From: Gemmatimonadota bacterium
GTDB taxonomy: Bacteria > Gemmatimonadota > Gemmatimonadetes > Gemmatimonadales > Gemmatimonadaceae
Direction of reading: 5' to 3'
DNA: 64,000 nucleotides
Assembly: GCA_023249305.1 (NCBI GenBank)
Contig: JAHFCU010000003.1
Location: 51,975 to 115,974 of the forward strand
Both the position numbers and the translations under genes were made by a program. The notes beneath the pieces were generated by a model. That model was not told where the DNA came from. It saw only the letters and a list, made by a program, of their open reading frames with translations, and made no database searches. Below are positions 45,336-58,719 of the stretch, one piece after another; within the stretch, counting starts at the first letter, position 1, and each line of letters opens with the position of its first letter.

Positions 45336-45548
45336 ATGATTGCCCTGCTTGCCCGCCTCTTCACGCTGCGCCCATTGCTCGGCGTCGCGATTCTCGGCAT
45401 TCCGGTGCTGGCGCTGATCGCCATCGGCCTCGCCGCGGTTGTGGTCGTGAAGCTGGTGTTGTTCGTGGTGCTGCCGATTGCGCTGGTCGTTTGGCTGGTG
45501 AAGCGCGTCTTCCGGCCGCACGACGACCTGGCCACACCGCAACTCTAG
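45336..45548 (+). CDS. Small hydrophobic membrane protein
   Basis: The ATG at 45336 gives 70 residues with two membrane helices (LGVAILGIPVLALIAIGLAAVVVV and LVLFVVLPIALVVWLV) and a short charged tail. A GGAG lies about ten bases upstream. The family is not recognised; the layout resembles small phage-shock or PspC-like hydrophobic proteins but without their motifs. It probably shares a transcript with the EAL gene and is followed by hairpins. Confidence 0.65.
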   Translation: MIALLARLFTLRPLLGVAILGIPVLALIAIGLAAVVVVKLVLFVVLPIALVVWLVKRVFRPHDDLATPQL

Positions 45549-45746: not shown

Positions 45747-45776
45747 TTGACGACAGAGGTTGCCAATACCTATTAT
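45747..45776 (+). promoter_or_regulatory. Strong sigma-70-like promoter of the LacI-led operon
   Basis: TTGACG (45747-45752) and TATTAT (45771-45776) are separated by 18 bases. The ATG of the LacI-type gene begins at 45787, so the transcript should start only a few bases before it and lack a ribosome site. This is the best promoter match I found in the window. Confidence 0.65.
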
Positions 45777-45786
45777 CAGATTGACT

Positions 45787-46830
45787 ATGCGATTTGGCAA
45801 AGGGCGGGTAACCGCGGCTGAGGTAGCCAAGCGGGCCGGTGTGTCACAGCCGACCGTTTCGCTGATCCTAACGCGCAACCCGAACGCAAGGGTGTCCCCC
45901 GAAACGCGTGCTCGCGTTCTGAAGATCGCCGAGGAGGTTGGCTATCGCCCCAACCGGCTCGCACAGGCGCTCGTCGCACGACGCTCATTTGCCATCGGCG
46001 TCATTGTGCCGGGCTTCAACAATCCGTTTTATGCGCACGTGCTGTCGGGCGCCGAGAAGGTTGCCGCGGAGTCAGGCTATGCGGTGCTCTTGTGCGAAGT
46101 GGGGGCGCTTGATGCCGTCCAGCACCTGCGAGCCCTTCGGGACCGTCAAATCGACGGCGTGATCATTGCCGGCATTGCCGCGAGCACGCTGCCGGCCGCC
46201 GAACTCGATGACTTGAACGTCGTGCTTGTGAACCAACCCTCGACGCGTTTCGCTTCGGTGGGCGGCGACTCGGAAAAGGCGGGGGCGATGGCCGCGTCGC
46301 ACTTGCTCGGGCTCGGGCACCGTTGCCTCGCCTTCATCGGCCCGGCAACGTCAATCCCCGCGTTCCGGCTCCGCGAACGCGGCTTCGTACAGGCTCTTCG
46401 CGCCGCCGGACTCTCCCTGCCGAGTGCGCGGGTCGTTCGCGCCGAGGCGAGCATCGCAGGCGGACTGGCGGCGATGCGGCGGCTGCTCGCGCTCCGGGAA
46501 CGGCCGACGGCGGTGTTCTGCGCGAACGACCTCATCGCGCTTGGGGCGCACAAAGCGTGCGGCGCGGCTGGCGTCGCGTTGCCGAGCGAACTGTCGCTGC
46601 TGGGGTGCGATGACATCGAGATGGGGACGCTCGTGTCGCCGGAACTCTCGACCATCGGCATGCCGCAGCGCGAACTTGGCGCTCGCGCCGTGCGCCAGTT
46701 GCTGCGGCAGATGGAGGGGGGCACGCCAGAGACGCCTCCGACACAGGTGCTGCCGCCGCGGATGGTCGCACGCGGCAGCACCGGTGCGGCAGCAGACGCC
46801 GCGCCGAGCCGCGAGGGGAGCGCGTCGTGA
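45787..46830 (+). CDS. LacI-family transcriptional regulator
   Basis: The ATG at 45787 gives 347 residues. The N-terminal DNA-binding part is canonical (VTAAEVAKRAGVSQPTVSLIL, then VSPETRARVLKIAEEVGYRPN with the hinge helix NRLAQALVARR). The sugar-binding-type effector domain follows (IGVIVPGFNNPFYAHVLSGAE, TAVFCANDLIALGAHKACG, LLGCDDIEMGTLVSPELSTI). It heads a ten-gene operon for lipid or hydroxyacid use and its stop overlaps the next gene by 4 bp (GTGA), so it likely controls this operon and its own promoter. The effector is not evident; LacI proteins that respond to non-sugars exist. Confidence 0.92.
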   Translation: MRFGKGRVTAAEVAKRAGVSQPTVSLILTRNPNARVSPETRARVLKIAEEVGYRPNRLAQALVARRSFAIGVIVPGFNNPFYAHVLSGAEKVAAESGYAVLLCEVGALDAVQHLRALRDRQIDGVIIAGIAASTLPAAELDDLNVVLVNQPSTRFASVGGDSEKAGAMAASHLLGLGHRCLAFIGPATSIPAFRLRERGFVQALRAAGLSLPSARVVRAEASIAGGLAAMRRLLALRERPTAVFCANDLIALGAHKACGAAGVALPSELSLLGCDDIEMGTLVSPELSTIGMPQRELGARAVRQLLRQMEGGTPETPPTQVLPPRMVARGSTGAAADAAPSREGSAS

Positions 46831-47834
46831 GTGAAGTTCGCCACGCCATCATCACGGGCACCGGCCACGCCGTGCCGTCCCGGCTGGTCACGAACGATGA
46901 ACTCTCAGCGACGCTTGGCGAGGACATTCACGCGTTCGTCGAGGGAACGCTCGGCATCCACCAGCGCTACTGGTGCGCGGCGGACGAGAGTACCGCGTCG
47001 CTGGCCACCGCGGCGGCGCGCCGCGCGCTTGCGATGTCGGGCCGCTCCACGGCCGACGTTGACCTCCTCATCGTGGCCACGGACACGCCCGAGTTCGTCT
47101 CGCCGCCCACAGCCAGCGTTGTCCACGGCCAGCTCGGCACGGTGAACGCCGGTACGTTCGACCTGAACGCCGGCTGCGCGGGGTTCGCGACGGCCCTCGA
47201 CACGGCATGGAAGTTCATCCGCGCGGACGAACGCTATCGCTGTATCGTGGTCATCGGCGCGTATGCAATGTCGAAGTTCCTCGATGTCCGCGACAAGAAG
47301 ACAGTGACGATCTTCGCTGACGGCGCAGGCGCCGCGGTGGTCGAGGCCGCCAAGCGTCCCGGCGTGCTGGCCAGCGAACTGTTCGCCGACGGCACGCTAT
47401 GTGAGGGGCTGGGTGTGTTTGCCGGCGGCACGCGCACGCCCGTGACGCAGGCGGTGCTCGACGACGGCTACCGCAACCACGTCCGTTTCGTGCAGAAGTA
47501 TCCCGCGTCGGTGAACGAGGAGGGATGGCCGCGCATTGTGCGTTCCGTGCTGGGGCGCATCGGCAAGAGGGAGAGCGACGTTGACCACTGGATGTGGACG
47601 CAGGTGAACCGGTCCACAATCGCAACGGTGATGGACACGCTCGACCAGCCGATGGAGAAGGCGCATACCATCATGGGGAAGTGGGGCTACACGGGCTCGG
47701 CCTGCCTGCCGATGGCGCTGGACGACGCCAACGCGAAGGGGTTGCTGCGTGACGGTGACCTCATAGTACTTACTGGCAGCGGTGCGGGGCTCGCGATGGG
47801 CTGTGTGGTGATGACGTGGCGAGGCGGGCGCTGA
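46827..47834 (+). CDS. Ketoacyl-ACP synthase III-like protein, catalytic residues altered
   Basis: This 335-residue protein (GTG start) has a thiolase fold like FabH. The nucleophile is kept in FDLNAGCAGF (Cys117). The normal His of H-Q-A-N is Thr in TQVN (Thr258) and the second active-site Asn of G-N-T-S is Tyr in WGYTGSA (Tyr288). Without His and Asn, decarboxylative condensation as in FabH is unlikely; acyl transfer or another thioester reaction is possible. It is coupled to the LacI gene (4 bp overlap) and to an acyl-CoA ligase gene (1 bp overlap), so its substrate is probably an acyl-CoA made by that ligase. Confidence 0.85.
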   Translation: MSEVRHAIITGTGHAVPSRLVTNDELSATLGEDIHAFVEGTLGIHQRYWCAADESTASLATAAARRALAMSGRSTADVDLLIVATDTPEFVSPPTASVVHGQLGTVNAGTFDLNAGCAGFATALDTAWKFIRADERYRCIVVIGAYAMSKFLDVRDKKTVTIFADGAGAAVVEAAKRPGVLASELFADGTLCEGLGVFAGGTRTPVTQAVLDDGYRNHVRFVQKYPASVNEEGWPRIVRSVLGRIGKRESDVDHWMWTQVNRSTIATVMDTLDQPMEKAHTIMGKWGYTGSACLPMALDDANAKGLLRDGDLIVLTGSGAGLAMGCVVMTWRGGR

Positions 47835-49477
47835 TGCGCACGATCGTGGACGCGCTTCTTAGGCACGCAGCGGTGTCGCCGACACGCGTAGCCCTGCGTA
47901 CGATGTCGGGTGCTGCCGCGACGTGGGATGAACTGGCACAGCAATCAACGCAGGTAGCCCGGGCGCTCGTGGCGAGCGGCGTGCGACCGGGTGACCGCGT
48001 GGCGGTGCTGGCTGGCAATTCGCTGATCTGGCCGCTTGCCGACCTCGGCACGTCGCTCGCCGGGGCGATCAGCGTCGGTCTATATCCCACGTCGTCGCCG
48101 GAGCAGGTGGCCGACGTGCTTGCCGACTGCGCTGCGCGCGTCCTCGTCGTCGATACCGGTGCTCAGCTCAACAAGGTGCGGCAAGTGCGCGACCGGCTTA
48201 CCGCACTGGAGCGTGTGGTGGCGAGGGATCCGGTTGGTGGGGAAGCCGAGGCGTGGTCCGACTGGCTGAGTTCCGACGCGACTGCCCGGGCAGTCCTGCC
48301 GCCGCTTCCAGTCCCAGAAGACGACGCGGCGCTGATCTACACATCGGGATCGACGGGTGTCCCCAAGGGGGCGCGCATCTCCCACGCCTGTCTCGCCGCA
48401 ACGGCGCAGTCAATCGCCGAAGTGCTCGAGTTGACGAGGGACGATACGTCGCTCTCGTTCCTCCCGTTCTGCCACTCTGCGGAGCGGATGTTCGGCCACG
48501 CGACGCGCGTGTGGATAGGTATGGAAGCGCTGATCGTCGACGACGTCGCGCACGTGTTTAAGGCAGCGGCGGCGTACCAACCGACGATCTTCGGCGGGCT
48601 GCCGCGCTTCTATGAGAAGGCGTACGAGGCGATGCAAGCGGCGGAGGCAGGGGCGTCGCGGGACGAGGCGGCGGCCCGGGCGGCGGCGGTGCGCATTGCG
48701 CACTTCGGCGCGCGAGTGCGGCGCGCCACGTCCGGGGGCGCCGCACTGTCCGTGGCCGTTGCGGAATATCTGGCGGTGCACGGGTTGGAAGTACTGGGGG
48801 CGTACGGGCAGACGGAGCACCTGTGCGTCACGATGCACCATCCATCTCATCGCAACTTCACCACGGCGGGCTCACCGATGCCCGGCACTGAACTGCGCAT
48901 CGCCGAGGATGGCGAGGTGCTGGTGCGACGCAGTCCGCTCACTTTCAGCGGCTACTGGGGGCGCGACGACGACACGCGCGACGCGTTCACGGATGACGGC
49001 CAGTGGTTGAAGACGGGTGACCTTGGCAGCGTAGCCGCGGACGGATTCCTGTCGATCACCGGGCGCAAGAAGGAACTCATTGCGCTCTCGTCGGGCAAGA
49101 AAGTGGCGCCGCTGCCGCTGGAAGCGGCCCTCGCGAACGGGCCGTGGATCGAGCACGCGGTGCTGTACGGCGAGGGGCGGAGCTACATCACGGCGTTGTT
49201 CACGGTGCGCCGGCAGACACTGCGCGAGTGGGCGGTGCGTGCAGGGCTGTCAGGCGAGCCCGAGGCGTTGCTCGCGCATCCGGCGGTGCGCGCCGCAGTG
49301 CAGGACCAGGTGGATGCGGTGAACGCGACGGTGTCGCGGCCCGAGCAGGTCAAGTGCTGGGTGATCGCCCGCGGCACGTTCTCGGTGGACGGCGGCGAAC
49401 TCACGCCGACGATGAAGCTGAAGCGCCGCGAGGTGACGGCGCGGTACGCCCCTTTGCTGGCGCCCCTCTATGACTGA
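47834..49477 (+). CDS. Long-chain-type acyl-CoA ligase
   Basis: The start is at the ATG at 47834, which overlaps the previous stop (TGATG); 547 residues. It belongs to the ANL superfamily, FAA1-like branch: P-loop YTSGSTGVPKGA, GAYGQTEH, KTGDLG, ITGRKKELIALSSGKKVAP, and the C-terminal catalytic Lys region ELTPTMKLKRR. It activates a carboxylic acid to its CoA thioester with ATP in the cytosol. Chain length cannot be fixed from sequence. It sits between the ketosynthase-like gene and a small membrane protein. Confidence 0.9.
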   Translation: MRTIVDALLRHAAVSPTRVALRTMSGAAATWDELAQQSTQVARALVASGVRPGDRVAVLAGNSLIWPLADLGTSLAGAISVGLYPTSSPEQVADVLADCAARVLVVDTGAQLNKVRQVRDRLTALERVVARDPVGGEAEAWSDWLSSDATARAVLPPLPVPEDDAALIYTSGSTGVPKGARISHACLAATAQSIAEVLELTRDDTSLSFLPFCHSAERMFGHATRVWIGMEALIVDDVAHVFKAAAAYQPTIFGGLPRFYEKAYEAMQAAEAGASRDEAAARAAAVRIAHFGARVRRATSGGAALSVAVAEYLAVHGLEVLGAYGQTEHLCVTMHHPSHRNFTTAGSPMPGTELRIAEDGEVLVRRSPLTFSGYWGRDDDTRDAFTDDGQWLKTGDLGSVAADGFLSITGRKKELIALSSGKKVAPLPLEAALANGPWIEHAVLYGEGRSYITALFTVRRQTLREWAVRAGLSGEPEALLAHPAVRAAVQDQVDAVNATVSRPEQVKCWVIARGTFSVDGGELTPTMKLKRREVTARYAPLLAPLYD

Positions 49478-49928
49478 TCCGATGCCCACCCGATTCGCTC
49501 TCGCTGCGCTTGTCCTCTCGTGCTCCGCCATCGCGGTCGCATACGCGCTGGCCTTTCTGCCCGGCGGCGCGCCGCCGTGGGCGGCGTGGGGGCTCGCGCT
49601 CGGAAGCGCTGGGGTGCTGTCGTCAATGATGGCGTTGGGCGCGACGCGCGGGGGGCGCCTGCGTCCGATGGCGCTCGCCGCGAGCATCCTCACGTTCCTC
49701 GTGGTGGGCGGTTCGTTCGGTGCGGCGCTGGTTTTGCCTCCCAACGAGGGCCCGCGGGCGGTACTCGTGCTAGGCCTGCCGTTGCGCGCCGCGATCGTGC
49801 TGTACGGCGTGGGGATCGTGCCGATGCTCTTCCTCCCGCTCATGTACGCGGCATCGTTCGACGCCGATACGCTGAGTGACGAGGATCTTGAGCGCGTGCG
49901 GCGCGCGGCGCAGGAGCGTGGCGCATGA
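49470..49928 (+). CDS. Four-helix membrane protein next to the symporter
   Basis: This 152-residue protein overlaps the ligase gene by 8 bp, or starts at the second ATG (49482) 4 bp after its stop. Four membrane helices are predicted (FALAALVLSCSAIAVAYALAF, WGLALGSAGVLSSMMALGA, MALAASILTFLVVGGSFGAAL, AAIVLYGVGIVPMLFLPLMY) with a charged C-terminal tail. Its stop overlaps the symporter start as ATGA. Some sodium:solute symporters are encoded with a small helper membrane protein; this may be such a partner. The family is not recognised. Confidence 0.7.
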   Translation: MTDPMPTRFALAALVLSCSAIAVAYALAFLPGGAPPWAAWGLALGSAGVLSSMMALGATRGGRLRPMALAASILTFLVVGGSFGAALVLPPNEGPRAVLVLGLPLRAAIVLYGVGIVPMLFLPLMYAASFDADTLSDEDLERVRRAAQERGA

Positions 49929-51433
49929 CCGGCTGGCACCTGTTGCAGGGGACGTCGGCGGCCATGCGGCACCCGGCGATCATCGGCATCGCGGTGTTCT
50001 ACTTCGTGGTTGTCAGCCTCATCGGTGTCTGGGCGACGCGCCGGACGAAGAGTGCCAGCGACTTCTTCGTCGCCGGGCAGGGCATCGGCATCGTGACGCT
50101 CGCCGTCGCCGCGATGGCAAGCACGCTATCGGGGTTCGCATTCATCGGCGGACCCGGGCTGGTCTACTCGGTCGGCACGGGTGCGGTGTTCCTAGTGTTG
50201 GCGGCGTCGATCACCAACACGATGGGCGCCTGGGTACTGGCCAAACGCATGCGCCTGCTGGGCGAGGCGCGCGGCCTCCTCACGGTGCCTGACGCCATTG
50301 GGGCGCGCTTCCGCTCGCCGGCGGCGCAAGGGCTGAGCGCCGTGGCGATTCTCGTGGCGGTCATCGGGTATATGGCTACCAACTTCCTCGCGTTGGGCCT
50401 CGTGATCGACGCGATGTTCGGCACCGGACTCACGCTCGGCATCTGGCTGGCCATGCTCGTCACGCTTTCGTACACCGTGGCGGGCGGCATCCTCGCCGGC
50501 GTGTACACCGACCTGTTCGAGGGGCTGGTGAAGACGGCGGCATCGGTCACGGTGTTCTTCTTCGTGCTCAAGGCGGGCGGCGGCATGGAGGGGATCTCAC
50601 GCGCGATCGCGGCAGTGGACGCCACGTTCCTGGGCCCGTGGGGCAAGATGCCGGCGCTCTCGGCGCTGTCGCTGTTCTTCGTGTTCGGACTGGGCTCACT
50701 GGGGCAGCCGCACGTGGCGCACAAGTTCTACATGCTGCGCGACCCGCGGCGACTCAAGTGGTACCCGGTGCTGATGAGCACCGCGATGGCGCTGACGCTT
50801 CTGCTGTACGTGGGCGTCGGACTGGCGATGCGCGCCAAGGTGGCGAGCGGCGCGATTCCCCCACTCGTGCGCGCCGATGACGCCACACCGGCGTTCGTAC
50901 TCGGTTTCACGCCCAGCGTGGTGGCTGGGATCGTCTTTGCCGGCGTGATCGCTGCCGGCATGAGCACGGTGAACTCGTTCATGAACATCGGCGCTGCGGC
51001 ACTCACGCACGACCTGCCGCGTGCACTCGGGCGCCGCGTGGGCGACGAGTTGCGCTGGGGGCGCGCCTGGACGCTCGCACTCTCACTGGCCGCAGTGCTG
51101 GTGGCGCAGGTGTCGGGCACGCTGGTCGCCTTTCTCGGGATCTTCGGTTACGGGCTGTTTGCAGCGACGCTGGTGCCGTCTCTCGCCATCGGACTCAACT
51201 GGCGGGGGGCGACACGCGAAGGAGCCGTGGCGTCGATCGCCACCGGGCTGGGGCTGACGCTCGTGCTCGAGACGCTGGCGTACTTCAAGGTGTTCTCACT
51301 GCCCGGTGGCGTGACGGTGAGCGGACTGGCGCTCCTGCTCGCGCTGTTGGCCTTCTTCCTCGTCTCGTGGCTCACGCGGGCGCGGGCCGCGTCGCAGCTC
51401 GACGCCGACGTACGCCTGGTGATGGAGGTCTGA
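49925..51433 (+). CDS. Sodium:solute symporter (SSS family)
   Basis: This 502-residue protein has about 13 membrane helices. It has the SSS pattern: YFVVVSLIGVWATRRTKSASDFFVAGQGIG, FAFIGGPGLVYSVG, the sodium-site helix region YTVAGGILAGVYTDLFEG, and FAGVIAAGMSTVNSFMNIGAAALTHDL. Members close to this type take up short organic acids or amino acids with sodium. In this operon I expect a monomeric hydroxyacid or related carboxylate. The stop overlaps the PhaJ-like gene by one base. Confidence 0.9.
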   Translation: MTGWHLLQGTSAAMRHPAIIGIAVFYFVVVSLIGVWATRRTKSASDFFVAGQGIGIVTLAVAAMASTLSGFAFIGGPGLVYSVGTGAVFLVLAASITNTMGAWVLAKRMRLLGEARGLLTVPDAIGARFRSPAAQGLSAVAILVAVIGYMATNFLALGLVIDAMFGTGLTLGIWLAMLVTLSYTVAGGILAGVYTDLFEGLVKTAASVTVFFFVLKAGGGMEGISRAIAAVDATFLGPWGKMPALSALSLFFVFGLGSLGQPHVAHKFYMLRDPRRLKWYPVLMSTAMALTLLLYVGVGLAMRAKVASGAIPPLVRADDATPAFVLGFTPSVVAGIVFAGVIAAGMSTVNSFMNIGAAALTHDLPRALGRRVGDELRWGRAWTLALSLAAVLVAQVSGTLVAFLGIFGYGLFAATLVPSLAIGLNWRGATREGAVASIATGLGLTLVLETLAYFKVFSLPGGVTVSGLALLLALLAFFLVSWLTRARAASQLDADVRLVMEV

Positions 51434-51849
51434 TGCGCTTCGAGCAGATGGCGGTGGGAATGGTGGCGGAGCGCGCACGAACCGTGGCTGTGGATGACGT
51501 GCTGCGCTACGCGGAGATCACCGGCGACTTCAACCCAGTGCACGTGGACGCCGTGGCCGCGGCCAAGAGTCGCTTTGGCGGACAGATTGCGCACGGCATG
51601 CTAACGGCGGGCTACGTCTCGGCGCTGCTGGCGATGGACCTGCCGGGTCCCGGTTCCATCTATCTCACGCAAAGCATTCGGTTCACGCGCCCGGTCCGTC
51701 TCGGCGACACAGTGACGGCTCGGGCCGAAGTGGTCGAAGTGATCGAGGCCAAGCGCCGGGTGCGGCTGGCCACGACGTGCCGCAACCAGCACGGGGAAAC
51801 GGTGCTGGAAGGCGAAGCCACCATACTCATGCCGGAGGAGAGCGAATGA
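51433..51849 (+). CDS. phaJ: PhaJ-like (R)-specific enoyl-CoA hydratase (MaoC family)
   Basis: The start is at the ATG at 51433, with GGAGG four bases upstream, giving a 138-residue hot-dog fold protein. The hydratase-2 motif is exact: YAEITGDFNPVHVD with Asp32 and His37 at the places of the catalytic pair of A. caviae PhaJ. The segment GPGSIYLTQSIRFTRPVRLGD is also PhaJ-like. It interconverts (R)-3-hydroxyacyl-CoA and trans-2-enoyl-CoA, linking polyhydroxyalkanoate monomers to beta-oxidation. In this operon it would act after the acyl-CoA ligases. Confidence 0.88.
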   Translation: MRFEQMAVGMVAERARTVAVDDVLRYAEITGDFNPVHVDAVAAAKSRFGGQIAHGMLTAGYVSALLAMDLPGPGSIYLTQSIRFTRPVRLGDTVTARAEVVEVIEAKRRVRLATTCRNQHGETVLEGEATILMPEESE

Positions 51850-51952
51850 GCCCCTGACGCCGCGGGCACGGCCAGGGCCGCCGCCCTCATGACCTGACAG
51901 AAGTCCAGCGTTTCTTACCCGGTTCCACCCCTCTTTCGACCAGGAGACCATG

Positions 51953-54466
51953 ATGTCCAACTCGTTCCTCAGCACCGTTCGGCGCGCGCTGGTGGTGCTG
52001 CTCGTCGCGGCGCTGCCGGCGATGGCCCAAACCGGGCGCATCACGGGCCGCGTGACCGACGCGGCGAAGCTGCCGCTGAACGGCGCGCAGGTGCTCGTGG
52101 CGGGCACGGCGCTCGGCGCGGAGACCGACGCGGACGGTAGGTTCACGGTGACCGGCGTGGCGGCCGGCACGTACACCATCCGTGCGCAGCACATCGGCCA
52201 CAAGGTGGCGACGAAGACTGGCATCGCCGTGACCGCCGGAGCCGCCAGCACGGTGGAGTTCGTGCTCGACGCCACGCCGGTGACGCTCGGTGGCGTCGTC
52301 ATTTCCGCCTCGCGCCGCGTGGAGAAGATCACGGACGCGCCGGCCACCATCTCGCGACTGGACGCGATCGCCCTCCAGAACTCCATCGGCAACGGCTTCG
52401 CGCCGGCGCTGAAAGAAGTGAAGGGCATCGACTTCATTCAGGTGGGTATCACGGCGGTGGCCGTGAACGCGCGCGGGTTCAACTCGTCGTTCAACAACCG
52501 CATGCTGCAGATGGAAGATGGCCGCATCGGGGTGCTGCCGGAGAACGGCCTGCCCGTCGGCAGCTTCTCGCCGATCCCGAAGGTGGACCTCGCCGGGCTT
52601 GAGGTGCTGGTGGGTCCGGGCTCGGCGCTCTACGGACCGGATGCGTCGAACGGCGTGGTGACGCTGCAGGCAAAGGACGCCAAGCAGTATCAGGGATTCA
52701 GCGGCGAGGTGTCGGGCGGCACTCGCTCGTTCATGGATGCCCAGGCGCGCTATGCGAAGGCGTCGAGCAACGGCAAGTGGGCCGGCAAGGTGTCGGGCGA
52801 GTACCAGAGCGCGCAGGACTACCATTCGACCCCGGTCTACCCCACCGTCGGCACCAGCGGGCCGCTTCCCGAGAAGAGCACTGACTTCGCGACGAACGTG
52901 AAGCGCGGCTACGGTGCGCTCGCGTACTACTTCGACCGCGGCGGACGCCTCGAGATTACGGCGGGCGCCAGCGTCAGCAACGCTATCGGCCAAACGAACG
53001 TGGGCCGCAACCAATTGATCAACTGGCAGTACCGCGTACTGCAGGCCAAGTACACGTCGCCGCGCTGGTTCGCGCAGGCGTACCAGGCGCAGTCACTCTC
53101 TGGCGACACGTACCAGCTGAACGGCTACACGCAGAACCGCGTGCGCTACCCGACGATCACTGATGACTCGGTGAAGGCGCTGTCCGACTTCCCGGCCAAG
53201 GGCACGCTGATGGCCGCGGAGGTGCAGAACAACTTCTCCACCAGCATGCTGACGAAGACCGGCATCGCCGCGCTGGACAACACGCACTTCATCTGGGGCG
53301 TGCAGCTCCGCAAGGATGTCGTGACGTCGAAGCGCCAATGGCTGAGCGACCGCCTGACGGGCTCCGACATCACCGCGGCCCAGACGGGTGGCTATCTGCA
53401 GTTCGAGACGCCGTTGCCGATGAACCTGCGCCTCGTGGGCGCCGGACGCTACGACAAGCACGAGAACTACGACGCGCAGTTCAGCCCCAAGGCCGCACTG
53501 CTCTGGACGCCCGTTGGCGACCAGACGATCCGCGTCACGTACAACCGCGCGTTCAAGTCGCCGACACTGTTGCAGACGAATTTCTACTTCCCCAATTTCT
53601 CGCCGTACGTCGGCATCTTCGGCAACAAGGAAGGCTTCACGATCAAGAACAGCGCGGGCACCGTGGTGGCCACGTACAACCCCATCCAGCCCGAGATCAA
53701 CACGACGTACGAACTGGGCTACAAGGGCGTCATCAGGGACCGCCTGTACCTCGACATCACTGGCTACAAGTCGACGTATGACAACTTCCTCAGTCCGCTC
53801 ATCATCATTGCCAATCCGCTGGCCGGTGCGGCAGCCACGACCGCGTACAACATCGGCACGGGCGTGGCAGTCGGCTCGGAAGTCAACGCTGGCCCGCAGA
53901 TCGCGCTCACCTACATCAACATCGGCAAGGCGAAGATCTCGGGCATCGACATGGGCGCGCGGCTGGTGCTGACGAACACGCTGTCGATGAGCAGCACGCT
54001 GAGCCTGCTGAAGGTAGACACGATCGAGAAGCCGCCCGCCTCCAGTTCGCTGGCGTCGGCCGGCACCGAAGCGACCGCTTTCAACAGCCCGACCCTGAAG
54101 TGGACCGTCAGCCTTGATCAGGCCAAGATTGCCAACCGCCTCAGCGGCGGCGTCATGATGCGCACCGTGAACGAGTACTTCTTCCGCTCGGGGGTCAACG
54201 TCGGACGCCTGCCGGGCTTCACCACGCTGGACTTCAACCTCGGGTTCGACCTGCCGTGGGAGGCGTCCAAGTTGATGATCCGCTGGCAGAACATCTACAC
54301 CTGCACGTCGGGCACGACGACACCACCGGCGGCGGGCATCGCGGGCACGAACAGCGCGACGTTCACCAAGGGCAGCAAGTGCGGAGCCGGCCGGCAACAT
54401 CAGGAGATGCTCAACATGCCGTTCATCGGCCCGATGATGTTCGTCGGCGTGCGGTACGGCCGCTGA
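51953..54466 (+). CDS. TonB-dependent receptor of the putative PHA operon
   Basis: Two ATGs (51950 and 51953) follow CAGGAG; the second has better spacing. The ~837-residue product has a signal peptide ending LPAMAQ, a carboxypeptidase-regulatory-like domain (GRITGRVTDAAKLPLNGAQVLV, about 25-110), a plug domain (SASRRVEKITDAPATISRLD to GPDASNGVVTLQAKDA) and a barrel ending MFVGVRYGR. It begins 100 bp after phaJ and 3 bp separate its stop from the esterase gene. Pairing with a secreted polyester-type hydrolase suggests uptake of oligomers across the outer membrane, though this is inferred. Confidence 0.9.
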   Translation: MSNSFLSTVRRALVVLLVAALPAMAQTGRITGRVTDAAKLPLNGAQVLVAGTALGAETDADGRFTVTGVAAGTYTIRAQHIGHKVATKTGIAVTAGAASTVEFVLDATPVTLGGVVISASRRVEKITDAPATISRLDAIALQNSIGNGFAPALKEVKGIDFIQVGITAVAVNARGFNSSFNNRMLQMEDGRIGVLPENGLPVGSFSPIPKVDLAGLEVLVGPGSALYGPDASNGVVTLQAKDAKQYQGFSGEVSGGTRSFMDAQARYAKASSNGKWAGKVSGEYQSAQDYHSTPVYPTVGTSGPLPEKSTDFATNVKRGYGALAYYFDRGGRLEITAGASVSNAIGQTNVGRNQLINWQYRVLQAKYTSPRWFAQAYQAQSLSGDTYQLNGYTQNRVRYPTITDDSVKALSDFPAKGTLMAAEVQNNFSTSMLTKTGIAALDNTHFIWGVQLRKDVVTSKRQWLSDRLTGSDITAAQTGGYLQFETPLPMNLRLVGAGRYDKHENYDAQFSPKAALLWTPVGDQTIRVTYNRAFKSPTLLQTNFYFPNFSPYVGIFGNKEGFTIKNSAGTVVATYNPIQPEINTTYELGYKGVIRDRLYLDITGYKSTYDNFLSPLIIIANPLAGAAATTAYNIGTGVAVGSEVNAGPQIALTYINIGKAKISGIDMGARLVLTNTLSMSSTLSLLKVDTIEKPPASSSLASAGTEATAFNSPTLKWTVSLDQAKIANRLSGGVMMRTVNEYFFRSGVNVGRLPGFTTLDFNLGFDLPWEASKLMIRWQNIYTCTSGTTTPPAAGIAGTNSATFTKGSKCGAGRQHQEMLNMPFIGPMMFVGVRYGR

Positions 54467-54468
54467 AC

Positions 54469-55395
54469 ATGAATCGGTTCAGTTCGTGCCTGGCGTTCGC
54501 GCTGGCGCTGTCAGCGACCGGTGCGAATGGTCAGGTCACGGGTGCCCCACCCACGGCCGTTCAGGCGGTCGTGGGCGGGGCGTTCCACGCCGGCCGCATC
54601 ACCACCAGCGCGGGCGAACTGGACTACTCGCTGTTCGTGCCGGCGGCGCTGCCGCCGGCCGGACGGCGCGCATTGCTCGTAATGATCCACGGATGCTTGC
54701 AGGACGCCGCGGACTTCGCGCGCGGCACGCAGATGAACGCCGCCGCGGCCCGCGACAGTTTCGTGGTGCTCTGGCCGCAGCAGCGCGCCGCCAATCACGC
54801 ACAGAAGTGCTGGAACTGGTACGTGCCGGAGCATTCGCATCGTGGCGCCGGCGAGGTGGAAGAATTGCATGTGCTCGTCACAACAATCGTCACCGAGCAG
54901 GGCGTGGATCGAAAGCTTGTCTTCGTGGCAGGGGTCTCGGCGGGAGGCGCGATGGCGGTCAACTATGCGGCCGCGTACCCGCGTGACGTCCGCGCCATCG
55001 CCGTGCACTCATCACTCGGCGCGCTGGTGGCGCACGACGTGGCGTCCGCGCGCACGGCCATGAAGGAGGGCCCGGCGGAGGGAGCCGATGTACTGGCGCG
55101 CAGCGCGAGAGACGCGATGGGGGCCGATGCGCACGCCATTCCGCTTCTCGCCATCCATGGCGCCGCCGACGCGGTGGTGGCGCCGCGCAATCTCGATGCA
55201 CTAGCCGCGCAGTGGCGCGGATGGCACACGCTCATCGGCGAGACGGCGCGCGTTGAAACACATCTCATTCCCGGGCTTGGCCACGCCTGGTCCGGGGGCG
55301 ACGCGTCGGGTTCCTTCACCAATCCTGCCACCGTCAGCGCCACGCAGATGGTGCTCGACTTCTTTCGCAGCATGGGACTGCCAGGCGGTCGGTGA
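54469..55395 (+). CDS. Secreted esterase of the PHB depolymerase family
   Basis: The ATG at 54469 gives 308 residues with a signal peptide (MNRFSSCLAFALALSATGANGQ). The Esterase_PHB pattern is clear: LLVMIHGCLQDAADFARGTQMNA, WPQQRAANHAQKCWNWYVP, and the lipase box VSAGGAM. The triad is Ser157, Asp234 (HGAADAVV) and His272 (GLGHAWSGG). Family members split poly-3-hydroxybutyrate outside the cell, but feruloyl and acetyl-xylan esterases also belong here. It has no separate substrate-binding domain. Its stop overlaps the next ligase gene by one base. Confidence 0.88.
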   Translation: MNRFSSCLAFALALSATGANGQVTGAPPTAVQAVVGGAFHAGRITTSAGELDYSLFVPAALPPAGRRALLVMIHGCLQDAADFARGTQMNAAAARDSFVVLWPQQRAANHAQKCWNWYVPEHSHRGAGEVEELHVLVTTIVTEQGVDRKLVFVAGVSAGGAMAVNYAAAYPRDVRAIAVHSSLGALVAHDVASARTAMKEGPAEGADVLARSARDAMGADAHAIPLLAIHGAADAVVAPRNLDALAAQWRGWHTLIGETARVETHLIPGLGHAWSGGDASGSFTNPATVSATQMVLDFFRSMGLPGGR

Positions 55396-56915
55396 TGGCG
55401 CCGCCGCTCGGTGCGCTTGGCGCGCTCGTCGACCCGTTCCGCTGGTGGGGCTGTCTGACGCCGGAGAAGGTCGCGATCATCGACCGGGAGCGAGGCACGC
55501 GCGCGACGTACCGCGACGTGGACGATTCGGCACAGCGCTGGGCGGCACTGCTGGCCGCGCGCGGCATAGGCGAGGGAGATCGCGTCGCGCTCCTTGCGCT
55601 GAACAGTATTGAAGTCATCGGCCTGTTCTACGGTTGCGTGCGGTTGGGTGCGGCGCTCGTGCCGCTCAATTGGCGCTTGGCGGAGCCCGAGTTGGCGCGC
55701 GTCGTGTGCGACGCGCGTGTAGCGCTGCTTGTCGGGAATGCGCGGTTCGCCGCGATCGGTCGTGCGGTGACACCGGCGTCGTGGCTCGACCTTGGCGAGG
55801 CAAACGCCGCGCTTGCCACCGTGACGCCGCTGGGCAGTTCACCCTTGGGCGCGGCGGAGATCGACGCGGAAGCGCCGGCGCTGATTCTGTACACGTCGGG
55901 GAGCACCGGCAAGCCGAAGGGGGCCATGCTCTCCAATCGGCAACTGCTCTTCAATGCGCTCGCGACGACCACCGGGTGGCAACTGGGCGCACGCGACACG
56001 GGGCCGGTCTCGACACCGTTCTTCCACACGGGCGGCTGGAACGTCATCGCCATCCCGCTCTGGACAGTAGGCGGTACCGTGGTGTTGTTCGACACGTTCG
56101 ACCCGGCGCATTTCTTGGCGGCGCTGGACGAGGAGCGTGTGTCGATCGCGTTTGCCGTGCCCACGCAATTCGTGATGCTGTGCGCCCATCCGTCGTTCGG
56201 CCGGCCGCTGCCCTACTTGCGCCACTTCATCTCTGGCGGGGCGCCGTTGCCGCAGTCGGTGGCCGATCGCGTGCGGGCGGTCGGCTACGTCATTCGTGAA
56301 GGGTTCGGGATGACCGAGTTCGGCCCCAATTGCTTCATGATCAGCGACCACGAATCCCTGGCCCGGCCGGGGAGTGTGGGGTGGCCGTGCCCATTCGTTG
56401 AGATACGGCTTGTGGACGACGCGGGCCGCGACGTCAGCGTCGGCGACGCGGGCGAGATCCTGCTGCGCGGGCCTCAGCTGTTCAGCGGCTATCTCCACGA
56501 CGCCGAGCGCACCGCGGAGGTGATGACGAGCGACGGGTGGTACCGGTCGGGCGACCTCGCGATGCGCGATGCCGACGGGGCGTTCTACATTCGCGGCCGC
56601 CGAAAGCACATGTTCATTTCGGGCGGCGAGAACATCTTTCCGGGCGAGGTGGAGATGGCGCTCACCGAGTGCGGCGGTGTCGGCGAGGCGGTGGTGATCG
56701 GCGTGTCGGACGCGCGCTGGGGCGAAGTGGGACACGCCTTCCTCGTTTCGCGCACCGGCACGCCGCTCGACGGGGCAGCGGTGCTCGCCGAGTTGCGCAC
56801 ACGGATCGCGGCATACAAGGTGCCCAAGCACGTGACGGTCCTCGCCGAGACGCCGCGCCTTGCGTCGGGGAAGGTGGATCGTGCGCAGCTCGCGCTGCTG
56901 GCGGAGGCCCGATGA
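55395..56915 (+). CDS. Acyl-CoA ligase (fatty acid/short-chain type)
   Basis: The ATG at 55395 overlaps the esterase stop (TGATG); a GTG just before it is an alternative. The 506-residue product has the AMP-binding core: P-loop LYTSGSTGKPKGAM, GFGMTEFGPN, YRSGDLAMRD, RGRRKHMFISGGENIFPGEVE, and the catalytic Lys in RLASGKVDR. It belongs to the medium-chain/aromatic acid branch, different from the long-chain-type ligase at 47834. In this context it may activate (R)-3-hydroxyacids released by the esterase. Confidence 0.9.
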   Translation: MAPPLGALGALVDPFRWWGCLTPEKVAIIDRERGTRATYRDVDDSAQRWAALLAARGIGEGDRVALLALNSIEVIGLFYGCVRLGAALVPLNWRLAEPELARVVCDARVALLVGNARFAAIGRAVTPASWLDLGEANAALATVTPLGSSPLGAAEIDAEAPALILYTSGSTGKPKGAMLSNRQLLFNALATTTGWQLGARDTGPVSTPFFHTGGWNVIAIPLWTVGGTVVLFDTFDPAHFLAALDEERVSIAFAVPTQFVMLCAHPSFGRPLPYLRHFISGGAPLPQSVADRVRAVGYVIREGFGMTEFGPNCFMISDHESLARPGSVGWPCPFVEIRLVDDAGRDVSVGDAGEILLRGPQLFSGYLHDAERTAEVMTSDGWYRSGDLAMRDADGAFYIRGRRKHMFISGGENIFPGEVEMALTECGGVGEAVVIGVSDARWGEVGHAFLVSRTGTPLDGAAVLAELRTRIAAYKVPKHVTVLAETPRLASGKVDRAQLALLAEAR

Positions 56916-57505
56916 GCGCCCCGATGGCAAAGGGCGTGGCTCTGCATGCGACACTCGAGTACCTCGATGCACGCGATGCCAGCTTGCGGCCGCGGGTGAT
57001 GTCACGGCTGGATGCGACCGACCGTGCGAGGATCGAACGTCTCGCGCCCACCGATGAGATGCCCTACGTACTCATCGTGGCGCTGTGGCGAGCGGCGGAC
57101 GAAGAACTCGGCGCCACCGACCCGTTGTGGATGGAGAACGCGGGTGCCTTCTCCATCGCAGCACGCGGCGCTCAAATGTACGGCGGGATCCTGCGCAAGA
57201 AGGATCCGCACGAGTTCCTCACCCAGAGCGTGTCGCTCTTCCAGCTCTTCTACCATCCGGGCGACATGCAGGTGGTGGACGAATCGGCCGGGCGCGCGGT
57301 GATGCGTCTTGATGGGTTCGAGGCCGTGACCCCGCTCTTCTGCCAGCGGCAGACAGGGGGGCTGGCGGCCGCGCTGACCATTGCCGGCGGTGACGACCCC
57401 GTGGTGCGCCACGTCCGTTGTGCGCTCGAGGGTGACGCGTTCTGCGAGTGGGAGTTGAAGTGGCGCGTGCCGCGGCAGAGCGGGGAGACGGGGAAAGTCG
57501 GCTAG
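56912..57505 (+). CDS. DUF2378/V4R-like protein
   Basis: The ATG at 56912 overlaps the ligase stop as ATGA; 197 residues, no signal peptide. The N-terminal part is helical; the C-terminal part (RGAQMYGGILRKKDPHEFLTQ, FYHPGDMQVVDESAGRAVMRLDGFE, GDAFCEWELKWR) resembles the DUF2378 family found in myxobacteria, whose end recalls V4R small-molecule-binding domains. Similarity is judged by eye, so the family call is tentative. As last gene of the operon it could sense or bind an acyl compound. Confidence 0.6.
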   Translation: MSAPMAKGVALHATLEYLDARDASLRPRVMSRLDATDRARIERLAPTDEMPYVLIVALWRAADEELGATDPLWMENAGAFSIAARGAQMYGGILRKKDPHEFLTQSVSLFQLFYHPGDMQVVDESAGRAVMRLDGFEAVTPLFCQRQTGGLAAALTIAGGDDPVVRHVRCALEGDAFCEWELKWRVPRQSGETGKVG

Positions 57506-57549: not shown

Positions 57550-58719
57550 CTATTTCAAGATCGCCTTGGCGATCGTCTGCAGCTGCATGTTGCTCGTCCC
57601 CTCGTAGATCGCGCCGATCTTGGCGTCGCGATAGAACTTCTCGACGGGATAGTCCTTGGTGTAGCCGTAGCCACCGAGCAACTCGACCGCGAGCGACGTG
57701 ACGCGTTCGCAGACCTGCGAGGAGTAGAGCTTGGCCATCGCGCCAGTGACGGCGATGTCCTGCCCCGCTTCCTTCATGCGCGTGGCATTGTACACCATCA
57801 GGCGCGCTGCCTCGAGTTCGGTGGCTGCCTGCGCCACCTGGAACTGGATTCCCTGGAACTCGGCGAGCGCTTTGCCGAACTGCTTGCGCTCCTTCAGGTA
57901 GGCAACGGCGGCGTCGAGTGCCCCCTGCGCGTTGCCGATCATCTGCGCGCCAATGCCGATGCGTCCCTCGTTCAGCGTTTCGATGGCGATCTTGTAGCCT
58001 TGGCCGACGGGGCCAAGCACGTTGGCCGCGGGGACGGGCACGTTGTCGAAGATGAGCTCGGTCGTGCTCGAGGCGCGAATGCCGAGCTTGTCTTCTTTCT
58101 TGCCGGTCGAAAAGCCGCGCGTGCCTCGCTCGACGATGAACGCCGTGATGCCCTTGTAACCTTTCGACGGATCGGCGTTGGCGAAGATGATGAAGAACTC
58201 CGCATCGGCGCCGTTGGTGATCCACATCTTGCGGCCGTTGAGGACGAACGAACCGTCGGGTTGCAGCGCGGCGCGCGTCTGCAGCGCGAACGCATCGCTC
58301 CCCGACGACGCTTCGGAGAGCGCGTAGGCGCCCACCATGTCGCTGCAGAGCCGCGGCAGGTATCGCGCCTTTTGCTCTTCGTTCGCATACGTGAGCATAG
58401 GGTAGAGCACGAGCGTGTTCTGCACGTCTACCATGATCGCCGCTGCCGCGTCGGCCTTGCTGATCTCCTCGACGGCGATGGTCACCATCATCAGGTTGCC
58501 GCCGGCGCCGCCGTACTGCTCGGGGACCTGGATGCCCATCAGCCCCATCTCGAAGTACTTGGGAATCAGCGTCGGGTCGAGCTTGGCCGCCAGCTCCATC
58601 TCCTGCACGCGCGGGCGCACTTCGCCGTTCGTGAAGTCGGCGACGGCGTCGCGAAAGGCGATCTCGTCGTCGGTGAACACCGTCAGCGGGGGGCGATGGG
58701 AGGAGAAGTCGTTGGGCAT
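57550..58719 (-). CDS. Acyl-CoA dehydrogenase
   Basis: This 389-residue protein has the ACAD fold: EVRPRVQEMELAAKLD, MGLMGIQVPEQYGGAGG, AYALSEASSGSDAFAL, KMWITNGADAEFFIIFA, RKQFGKALAEFQGIQF, ELLGGYGYTKDYPVEKFYRDAK, and the catalytic Glu in IYEGTSNMQL. It is closest to short/branched-chain members and passes electrons through ETF. It converges on the end of the putative PHA operon. It might act on acyl-CoA products of that pathway, but it is transcribed separately. Confidence 0.93.
   Translation of the reverse strand: MPNDFSSHRPPLTVFTDDEIAFRDAVADFTNGEVRPRVQEMELAAKLDPTLIPKYFEMGLMGIQVPEQYGGAGGNLMMVTIAVEEISKADAAAAIMVDVQNTLVLYPMLTYANEEQKARYLPRLCSDMVGAYALSEASSGSDAFALQTRAALQPDGSFVLNGRKMWITNGADAEFFIIFANADPSKGYKGITAFIVERGTRGFSTGKKEDKLGIRASSTTELIFDNVPVPAANVLGPVGQGYKIAIETLNEGRIGIGAQMIGNAQGALDAAVAYLKERKQFGKALAEFQGIQFQVAQAATELEAARLMVYNATRMKEAGQDIAVTGAMAKLYSSQVCERVTSLAVELLGGYGYTKDYPVEKFYRDAKIGAIYEGTSNMQLQTIAKAILK

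Follow-up and report, generated by a model that had tools for sequence, protein, structure and literature searches.

A conserved LacI-headed operon of Gemmatimonadaceae that may serve the harvesting of ester-linked (R)-3-hydroxyacids

The DNA analyzed here (the window) is a 64,000-nucleotide stretch of a Gemmatimonadota bacterium of the family Gemmatimonadaceae (assembly GCA_023249305.1, contig JAHFCU010000003.1, positions 51,975 to 115,974 of the forward strand). The host genome is a 2.5-Mb bin of 83 contigs that is 78.6% complete. ORF (open reading frame) reading of the window identified ten intact ORFs, all on the plus strand, spanning positions 45787–57505 and preceded by a palindromic operator. 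They encode a LacI-family regulator and a set of putative uptake and acyl-coenzyme A (acyl-CoA) enzymes, including an esterase of the polyhydroxyalkanoate (PHA) depolymerase type. The features of the locus are as follows.

45761..45778, no strand: palindromic operator TGCCAATACCTATTATCA, conserved across family upstream regions
45787..46830, plus strand: gene 1, LacI-family regulator, 347 aa (Pfam/NCBIfam)
46827..47834, plus strand: gene 2, FabH/KASIII-like protein, 335 aa, with Cys117 conserved and with Thr258 and Tyr288 replacing the His and Asn of FabH
47834..49477, plus strand: gene 3, AMP-forming acyl-CoA ligase 1, 547 aa (best model FadD11, below its cut-off)
49470..49928, plus strand: gene 4, small hydrophobic membrane protein, 152 aa, likely symporter partner (hydropathy, position)
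49925..51433, plus strand: gene 5, sodium/solute symporter family transporter, 502 aa (Pfam/NCBIfam)
51433..51849, plus strand: gene 6, PhaJ-like MaoC (R)-enoyl-CoA hydratase, 138 aa (families, solved relatives)
51950..54466, plus strand: gene 7, TonB-dependent outer-membrane receptor with an N-terminal carboxypeptidase-regulatory-like domain, 838 aa
54469..55395, plus strand: gene 8, PHA-depolymerase type 1 esterase, 308 aa, signal-peptide-like N-terminus (by eye)
55395..56915, plus strand: gene 9, AMP-forming acyl-CoA ligase 2, 506 aa (Pfam/NCBIfam)
56912..57505, plus strand: gene 10, H-NOX/V4R-fold protein, 197 aa, no heme motif, zinc-type Cys145/His168/Cys171/Cys179 (numbering from 56909)
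57550..58719, minus strand: acyl-CoA dehydrogenase, convergent neighbor, which also adjoins the operon in four other genomes (G107, G096, G124, G130)

The LacI start was set at the ATG at 45787; an alternative TTG at 45760 adjoins the operator. With the starts chosen, seven of the nine junctions are overlaps of 1–8 bp. From LacI on, the overlaps are 4, 1, 8, 4 and 1 bp; the TonB receptor then follows after a gap of 100 bp and the esterase after one of 2 bp, and the last two junctions overlap by 1 and 4 bp. This arrangement agrees with the initial annotation of the window, which described ten mostly overlapping genes on one strand. Pfam and NCBIfam confirmed the domains it had named, namely, the LacI regulator at the head, the TonB receptor, the Na+/solute symporter, two AMP-forming ligases, the MaoC hydratase and the esterase of the polyhydroxybutyrate (PHB) type. 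Genes 2, 4 and 10 and the operator had been left unnamed. Gene 4 has no family match in Pfam or NCBIfam, and its relative adjoins the symporter in related loci.

Gene content, conservation, the shared palindrome, and the catalytic residues with their replacements were computed directly. The conservation survey covered 148 genomes of the host's bacterial family, its own genome included, from 35 genera. Gene 10 found a match at E 7e-31 or better in 25 of the 148 genomes; 24 of these matches are near full length and one (G062) is truncated where its contig ends. Another 37 genomes have weaker matches (E 1e-13 to 1e-3); these bring the tally to 62/148 and were not counted as orthologues. Orthologues of gene 2 (at least 66% identity) were found in 20 genomes of 11 genera, all of which also hold gene 10. 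The probability of this co-occurrence by chance is 4e-21, calculated for 24 and 20 of 148 genomes taken as independent, with kinship ignored.

Among the 24 other genomes with the locus, the last gene is present in 24, LacI in 22, the TonB receptor in 21, the esterase and ligase 2 in 20 each, the FabH-like gene in 19, the small protein in 18, the symporter in 17 and the hydratase in 14. Several of these counts are lower bounds owing to contig ends, and the 24/24 for gene 10 should be read with its role as the query by which most of the 24 loci were found. The count for ligase 2 misses G092, where the gene is split in two; ligase 1 was given no family count, since its matches include cross-hits to ligase 2 (for example, in G037 and G062). 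Three of the four loci without the esterase (G008, G027, G130) are cut by contig ends, and the fourth (G009) has another alpha/beta hydrolase together with a short-chain dehydrogenase/reductase (SDR) that scored above the cut-off of none of the 25 models listed.

Mapping of the fetched loci showed the order LacI, FabH-like, ligase 1, small protein, symporter, hydratase, receptor, esterase, ligase 2, last gene wherever the full set is present. A shorter form in G107 and G140 consists of LacI, receptor, esterase, last gene, small protein and symporter; the hydratase comes next in G107, and the G140 contig ends at that point. Since gene content and order recur in the family, the ten-gene set is not a chance assembly, and the ten genes are one conserved, LacI-headed operon. 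None of the titles and abstract openings screened described this operon, most subscription journals lying outside the search.

Some related loci differ in detail. A 5.3-kb contig in the bin of another species (L070, G062:C44:1-5275) encodes a receptor, an esterase and a ligase 2 whose protein sequences match those of the window with 100% identity; it is possibly mis-binned, and the G062 bin has no gene 2 orthologue at 66% identity or above. In four Gemmatimonadales bins (L113, L114, L115, L151), a variant of the operon has one more ligase relative and also a second KASIII-like paralogue, in which Ser-Leu-His stands at the aligned triad positions. A nine-member gene cluster is found near the LacI end (L074, L076, L077, L080, L081, L082, L084, L085 and L071, the last without the operon); its L085 copy is of the deoxyhypusine/homospermidine synthase kind, below the cut-offs. 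In the window itself, a small ORF at 45336-45548, between an EAL-domain gene and the operator, encodes a very hydrophobic 70-aa protein (by eye).

A palindrome with the family consensus TGCYAATRCGYATTRGCA was detected upstream of LacI, with three or fewer mismatches in 35 of 37 distinct upstream regions. None of 740 shuffled regions contained such a site, the nearest having four mismatches. The window operator TGCCAATACCTATTATCA differs from TGCYAATRCGYATTRGCA at two positions and lies 26 bp before the LacI ATG. When one mismatch at most was allowed, the operator was found in 15 of the 148 family genomes, each with a single site, and the reversed control gave none. The host falls outside this set of 15; the window form occurs once in its genome. 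No second operator place that would indicate a regulon beyond the operon was found in the host genome or in the 15 others. In the exceptions G037 and G147, the coordinates place the site about 70–90 bp before a neighboring module of receptor, ligase and hydrolase genes and not before LacI, which suggests the same control of this module. The LacI protein likely binds the palindrome at 45761-45778 and, from there, likely represses its own operon.

The esterase scores 232.9 bits against NF050058 (extracellular short-chain PHA depolymerase, type 1; cut-off 150) and is the only gene of the host genome above this cut-off. Among solved proteins, 8daj is the nearest, with a profile E of 8e-104 and 350 bits. 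The feruloyl esterase and acetylxylan esterase structures reach 89 and 83 bits with the same family profile, and assignment of the protein to either type was rejected by score. The clustering with feruloyl or acetylxylan esterases that the initial annotation had named beforehand as a refutation was thus not seen. The triad Ser159/Asp236/His274 and Cys78 (numbering from 54463) are invariant in the 14 aligned copies of the 21 available; the initial annotation had noted an intact triad. Counted on the alignments, these residues correspond to Ser121, Asp197, His270 and Cys40 of 8daj, which are the residues that an excerpt of PMC11893044 gives for the PHB depolymerase of Lihuaxuella thermophila. 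Because the four named residues fall on the aligned triad and oxyanion residues, 8daj was identified, within the limits of that excerpt, as this enzyme.

The nearest solved relatives of the hydratase are 5cpg (E 1e-35) and 1iq6 (E 3e-24), both (R)-specific enoyl-CoA hydratases. All 15 hydratases compared retain the MaoC catalytic Asp and His, so the PhaJ-like assignment made from the sequence alone was borne out. In PHA producers, PhaJ feeds polymer synthesis. No PhaC_N match was found in the host genome (78.6% complete), and therefore the window hydratase would run towards enoyl-CoA. At this completeness, the absent polymer synthase fits scavenging of polymer made by other cells.

The gene 2 product contains both Pfam ACP_syn_III domains above the cut-off. 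Its predicted model (predicted local distance difference test score 82) has the KASIII (thiolase) fold, with 2x3e as the best match (template modeling score 0.84), and its nearest sequence families are beta-ketoacyl-ACP (acyl carrier protein) synthases. With the curated FabH models it scores 202.8 bits for TIGR00747 (cut-off 292) and 230 bits for PRK09352 (cut-off 249). Cys117, Thr258 and Tyr288 were found in all 20 family orthologues, Thr258 standing in place of the FabH His and Tyr288 in place of Asn. A wider alignment of 96 sequences contained 76 with Cys-Thr-Tyr, 12 of the FabH type Cys-His-Asn, seven paralogues of another type and one 37% relative (G069) reading Gly-Ala-Phe. Four short hits (L161, L168, L169 and the second copy in L166) had been dropped before this count. 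The patterns used for the contig scan were TIFADGAG and WTQVN[RL]ST, the second of which favors Thr258; the count of 76/96 is biased at Thr258 and not at Tyr288, and the 20/20 comes from a pattern-free search. Judged by its sequence, the gene 2 product falls outside FabH, lacking Cys-His-Asn and scoring below the cut-offs, and keeps the fold and the nucleophilic Cys. An olefin-synthesis (Ole) reading of gene 2 with its ligase was rejected: 3row and others, which we take to be OleA structures, reach 66 bits at most versus 160 for the best FabH, and gene 2 has lost the residues for condensation.

The best gene 2 relatives in the contig scan came from Gemmatimonadota and Gemmatimonadaceae bins. 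The type recurs in other phyla and, in Acidobacteriota, adjoins ligase and hydratase genes. The scan gave 80 loci, 37 of which were taken as Acidobacteriota, leaving out L171 (FabH-type). A ligase 1 relative lies within 3.5 kb downstream of the gene 2 relative in 34 of the 37, the three misses being cut by contig ends, and a MaoC relative is present on either strand in 25. At the thresholds used, relatives of the esterase, gene 10, the symporter, the receptor and LacI were all absent from the DNA stretch around the locus in each of the 37.

Distant neighborhoods were listed for 10 of the 80 loci, one of which (L113) is from Gemmatimonadales; ten proteins from five of them were typed, and receptor-like genes were named by eye. 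In some of these neighborhoods, alpha/beta hydrolases, SDR reductases, a CoA-transferase-like gene, and symporters or a major facilitator superfamily carrier surround the gene 2 relative. No recognizable partner genes were seen beside it in Minicystis (L153). In Bacteroidales (L163-L164), a second paralogue stands beside the gene 2 relative and was typed as PRK06840 in L163. Gene 2, ligase 1 and the hydratase look like an acyl module of their own that would be coupled to the polyester-uptake set in Gemmatimonadota.

For gene 10, no credible solved sequence relative was found, and the protein was compared by fold. It has the H-NOX fold and no sequence-family match, and the V4R sensors DmpR and PoxR are among its Foldseek matches. 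The Pfam V4R score is 16.5 bits (gathering cut-off 31), with a weak match in 11 of 14 members. The heme marks of H-NOX proteins are a proximal His in the helical part and the YxSxR motif. The sole invariant His among the 14 orthologues of gene 10 is His168, in a C-terminal strand, and YxSxR was found in none of the 14 and in none of the 120 homologues listed out of 1012. The protein has the H-NOX fold and, with respect to heme, lies outside the H-NOX family. Cys145, Cys171 and Cys179 (spacing 26 and 8) are present in 14/14 orthologues, and the Cys/His/Cys/Cys pattern is present in all of the 120 homologues listed out of 1012. The zinc-binding Cys151/177/185 of DmpR have the same spacing; the predicted fourth zinc ligand of gene 10, His168, differs in kind and place from Glu172 of DmpR. 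Gene 10 likely binds a hydrophobic ligand, which it would sense or carry.

The favored reading, which we hold at about even confidence, is that the operon harvests (R)-3-hydroxyacids in ester linkage, with PHB/PHA oligomers set free by other cells as their likely form. The substrate, the direction of transport, the order of steps, the ligand and repression are what we infer from the computed features. By homology, the TonB receptor would bring oligomers through the outer membrane, and the secreted type 1 PHA-depolymerase-like esterase would hydrolyze them, within the periplasm or outside it, to 3-hydroxyacids. The symporter and its small membrane partner would carry the acids into the cell, where the two ligases would make their CoA thioesters. 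The PhaJ-like hydratase would convert (R)-3-hydroxyacyl-CoA to enoyl-CoA for beta-oxidation; the adjoining acyl-CoA dehydrogenase possibly acts downstream in the same catabolism. The FabH-like protein may perform an acyl-transfer step on the activated acids through an acyl-Cys intermediate, acyl transfer being the favored reading of a protein from which no Claisen condensation would be expected. The H-NOX/V4R-fold protein would act as a sensor or carrier of a hydrophobic ligand.

Several observations weigh against the polyester reading. A second solved PHB depolymerase, 2d80, gives only 45 bits with the esterase profile. No separate substrate- or polymer-binding domain was recognized on the esterase, a protein of 308 aa with only hydrolase-fold families in Pfam/NCBIfam. 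Such a domain is found in many type 1 extracellular short-chain PHA depolymerases; its absence is not decisive for type 1 membership, because the 8daj chain also has only 302 aa. Soluble oligomers or amorphous material would be likelier substrates than granules. In the excerpt of PMC11893044, the tabulated substrates of the Lihuaxuella thermophila enzyme are PHB, PHBH, PHBVH, polylactic acid (PLA) and polycaprolactone (PCL); since this nearest characterized enzyme also takes PLA and PCL, the relationship points, as far as the table goes, to polyesters and not to one polymer. The G009 locus has the other alpha/beta hydrolase in place of such an esterase, and the hydratase is absent from several otherwise intact loci (G098, G048, G145, G016, G015). 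The FabH-like gene has no place in the textbook PHB pathway. The best models of ligase 1 (FadD11 and other long-chain types) stay below their cut-offs, and among solved structures it scores best (108 bits) with an entry named Oxidoreductase. The nearest solved relative of ligase 2 is a feruloyl-CoA synthetase (318 bits).

The ten genes also include no 3-hydroxybutyrate dehydrogenase, and no gene of the 78.6% complete host genome exceeds the TIGR01963 cut-off for this enzyme. In favor of the reading, two acetoacetyl-CoA synthetases above the cut-off were identified in the host genome (G000:C76:1863-3860 and G000:C37:32958-34958); one TAG lies inside the C37 match. In the relatives, an acetoacetyl-CoA synthetase cluster is present in 7 of 30 fetched loci (L069, L071, L074, L076, L077, L084, L085), of which only the L085 copy was typed (885 bits, cut-off 521). 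It is followed by 4-hydroxyphenylpyruvate dioxygenase (typed in L085, assigned in six loci by clustering) and homogentisate dioxygenase (by eye). With these tyrosine-pathway genes behind it, the synthetase gene may be part of tyrosine breakdown and not of the operon in those relatives that carry it downstream; one holder (L071) lacks the operon. The gene was dropped as proof of a 3-hydroxybutyrate route. The scavenging proposed in the initial annotation stands in part: the esterase comparison and the PhaJ-like hydratase speak for it, and the substrate is a prediction, with ligase 2 nearest to a feruloyl-CoA synthetase. The "complete route" claimed there was too strong, as the ten genes have neither the dehydrogenase nor a thiolase, nor a recognized polymer-binding domain.

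Two main rivals stand behind the polyester reading. The first, which is possible and rather unlikely, takes the substrates to be other hydroxy-fatty-acid esters, that is, medium- or long-chain 3-hydroxyacyl esters of biosurfactants, lipids or cutin-like material, and not short-chain PHB. The long-chain models of ligase 1, the acyl-CoA dehydrogenase next door and the several polyesters tabulated for the nearest characterized type 1 enzyme agree with it, and (R)-hydratases can fit other chain lengths. NF050058, however, is named for short-chain-length PHA, and a sodium/solute symporter is an unusual carrier for long-chain acids.

The second rival concerns aromatic esters of plants or lignin: the esterase would free hydroxycinnamic or hydroxybenzoic acids, the symporter would import them, ligase 2 would make the aromatic CoA ester, and gene 10 would sense a phenolic. 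The feruloyl-CoA synthetase relationship of ligase 2, the resemblance of gene 10 to V4R sensors in fold and to the phenol sensor DmpR in its 26/8 Cys spacing, and the dioxygenase genes downstream of the operon in some relatives point this way. It is nevertheless unlikely. The esterase profile gives 350 bits to the PHB depolymerase versus 89 to feruloyl esterase, and a PhaJ-type hydratase would not be expected. The phenol-anchoring His/Trp pair of DmpR has no fixed counterpart in the 14 gene 10 orthologues, which have no invariant Trp at residues 75-180 and only His168 as an invariant His. Tyrosine-pathway genes apart, no aromatic-ring, demethylase or hydroxycinnamate hydratase/aldolase gene was found among the typed proteins. 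A biosynthetic operon is very improbable. In this reading, an acyl product would be assembled by the FabH-like protein together with the ligases, and the esterase and receptor would have accessory roles. Polyketide and lipid pathways typically contain FabH-like and ligase genes, and the nearest families of gene 2 are beta-ketoacyl-ACP synthases. Against it, the His and Asn needed for condensation are missing from gene 2, an acyl carrier protein could not be accommodated among the ten genes, and the receptor, symporter, secreted esterase and local regulator form an uptake set. Gene 2 is also absent from the G107, G140 and G009 loci, where receptor, symporter and last gene remain.

A bolder proposal for gene 2, distinctly unlikely as a whole, is that it founds a catabolic branch of the thiolase superfamily. 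With Cys-Thr-Tyr and without Claisen condensation, such enzymes would pass the hydroxyacyl group of imported ester dimers or acyl-CoA to the cysteine and then to CoA, a thiolysis of oligoesters that spends no ATP. The branch would travel across several phyla with genes of an ester hydrolase, an acyl-CoA ligase and a PhaJ-like hydratase or reductase; in Gemmatimonadota, it would be the second gene of a LacI-controlled polyester-uptake operon ending in a heme-free ligand sensor of the H-NOX fold.

If the polyester reading is true, a widespread, little-cultured bacterial family has a dedicated, locally regulated system for living on the storage polyester of other bacteria, and perhaps also for growth on PHA bioplastics, with genes that can be tested singly. 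In the FabH-like protein, the replacement of His and Asn is fixed across the family, and in other phyla hydroxyacid-type enzymes lie beside it; it is a concrete target in the search for a new thiolase-fold reaction.

The esterase and hydratase fit known families, and the departures are genes 2 and 10. The esterase resembles type 1 short-chain PHA depolymerases (NF050058, 8daj) in family score, triad, oxyanion Cys and length of the catalytic domain; it differs in its setting, a TonB-receptor/symporter/ligase operon behind its own LacI gene. The hydratase has the PhaJ enzymes 5cpg and 1iq6 as its best solved matches and the same catalytic Asp and His. Gene 2 shares the fold and the nucleophilic Cys with KASIII/FabH and with the KASIII-like acyltransferases CerJ and ChlB3, for which an excerpt of PMC9573744 gives Cys-His-Asp. 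FabH uses Cys-His-Asn, and the gene 2 family has Cys-Thr-Tyr at the FabH-aligned places. Because CerJ and ChlB3, as described there, keep a His, gene 2 is a further departure. Gene 10 differs from H-NOX and V4R sensors (DmpR, PoxR) in having no invariant heme-type His, no YxSxR and no fixed phenol-anchoring His/Trp pair, and in being a stand-alone gene.

For the operon as a whole, the known counterparts are TonB-dependent loci such as those for plant carbohydrates in Xanthomonas (PMC1790865, in excerpt). Like TonB-dependent polymer utilization loci, the window operon unites a receptor, a secreted hydrolase, a carrier of the inner membrane and a local regulator. The Xanthomonas loci reportedly combine these four components with glycoside hydrolases. 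In the window operon, CoA ligases and a hydratase replace the glycoside hydrolases, and therefore its cargo would be an acid ester and not a sugar.

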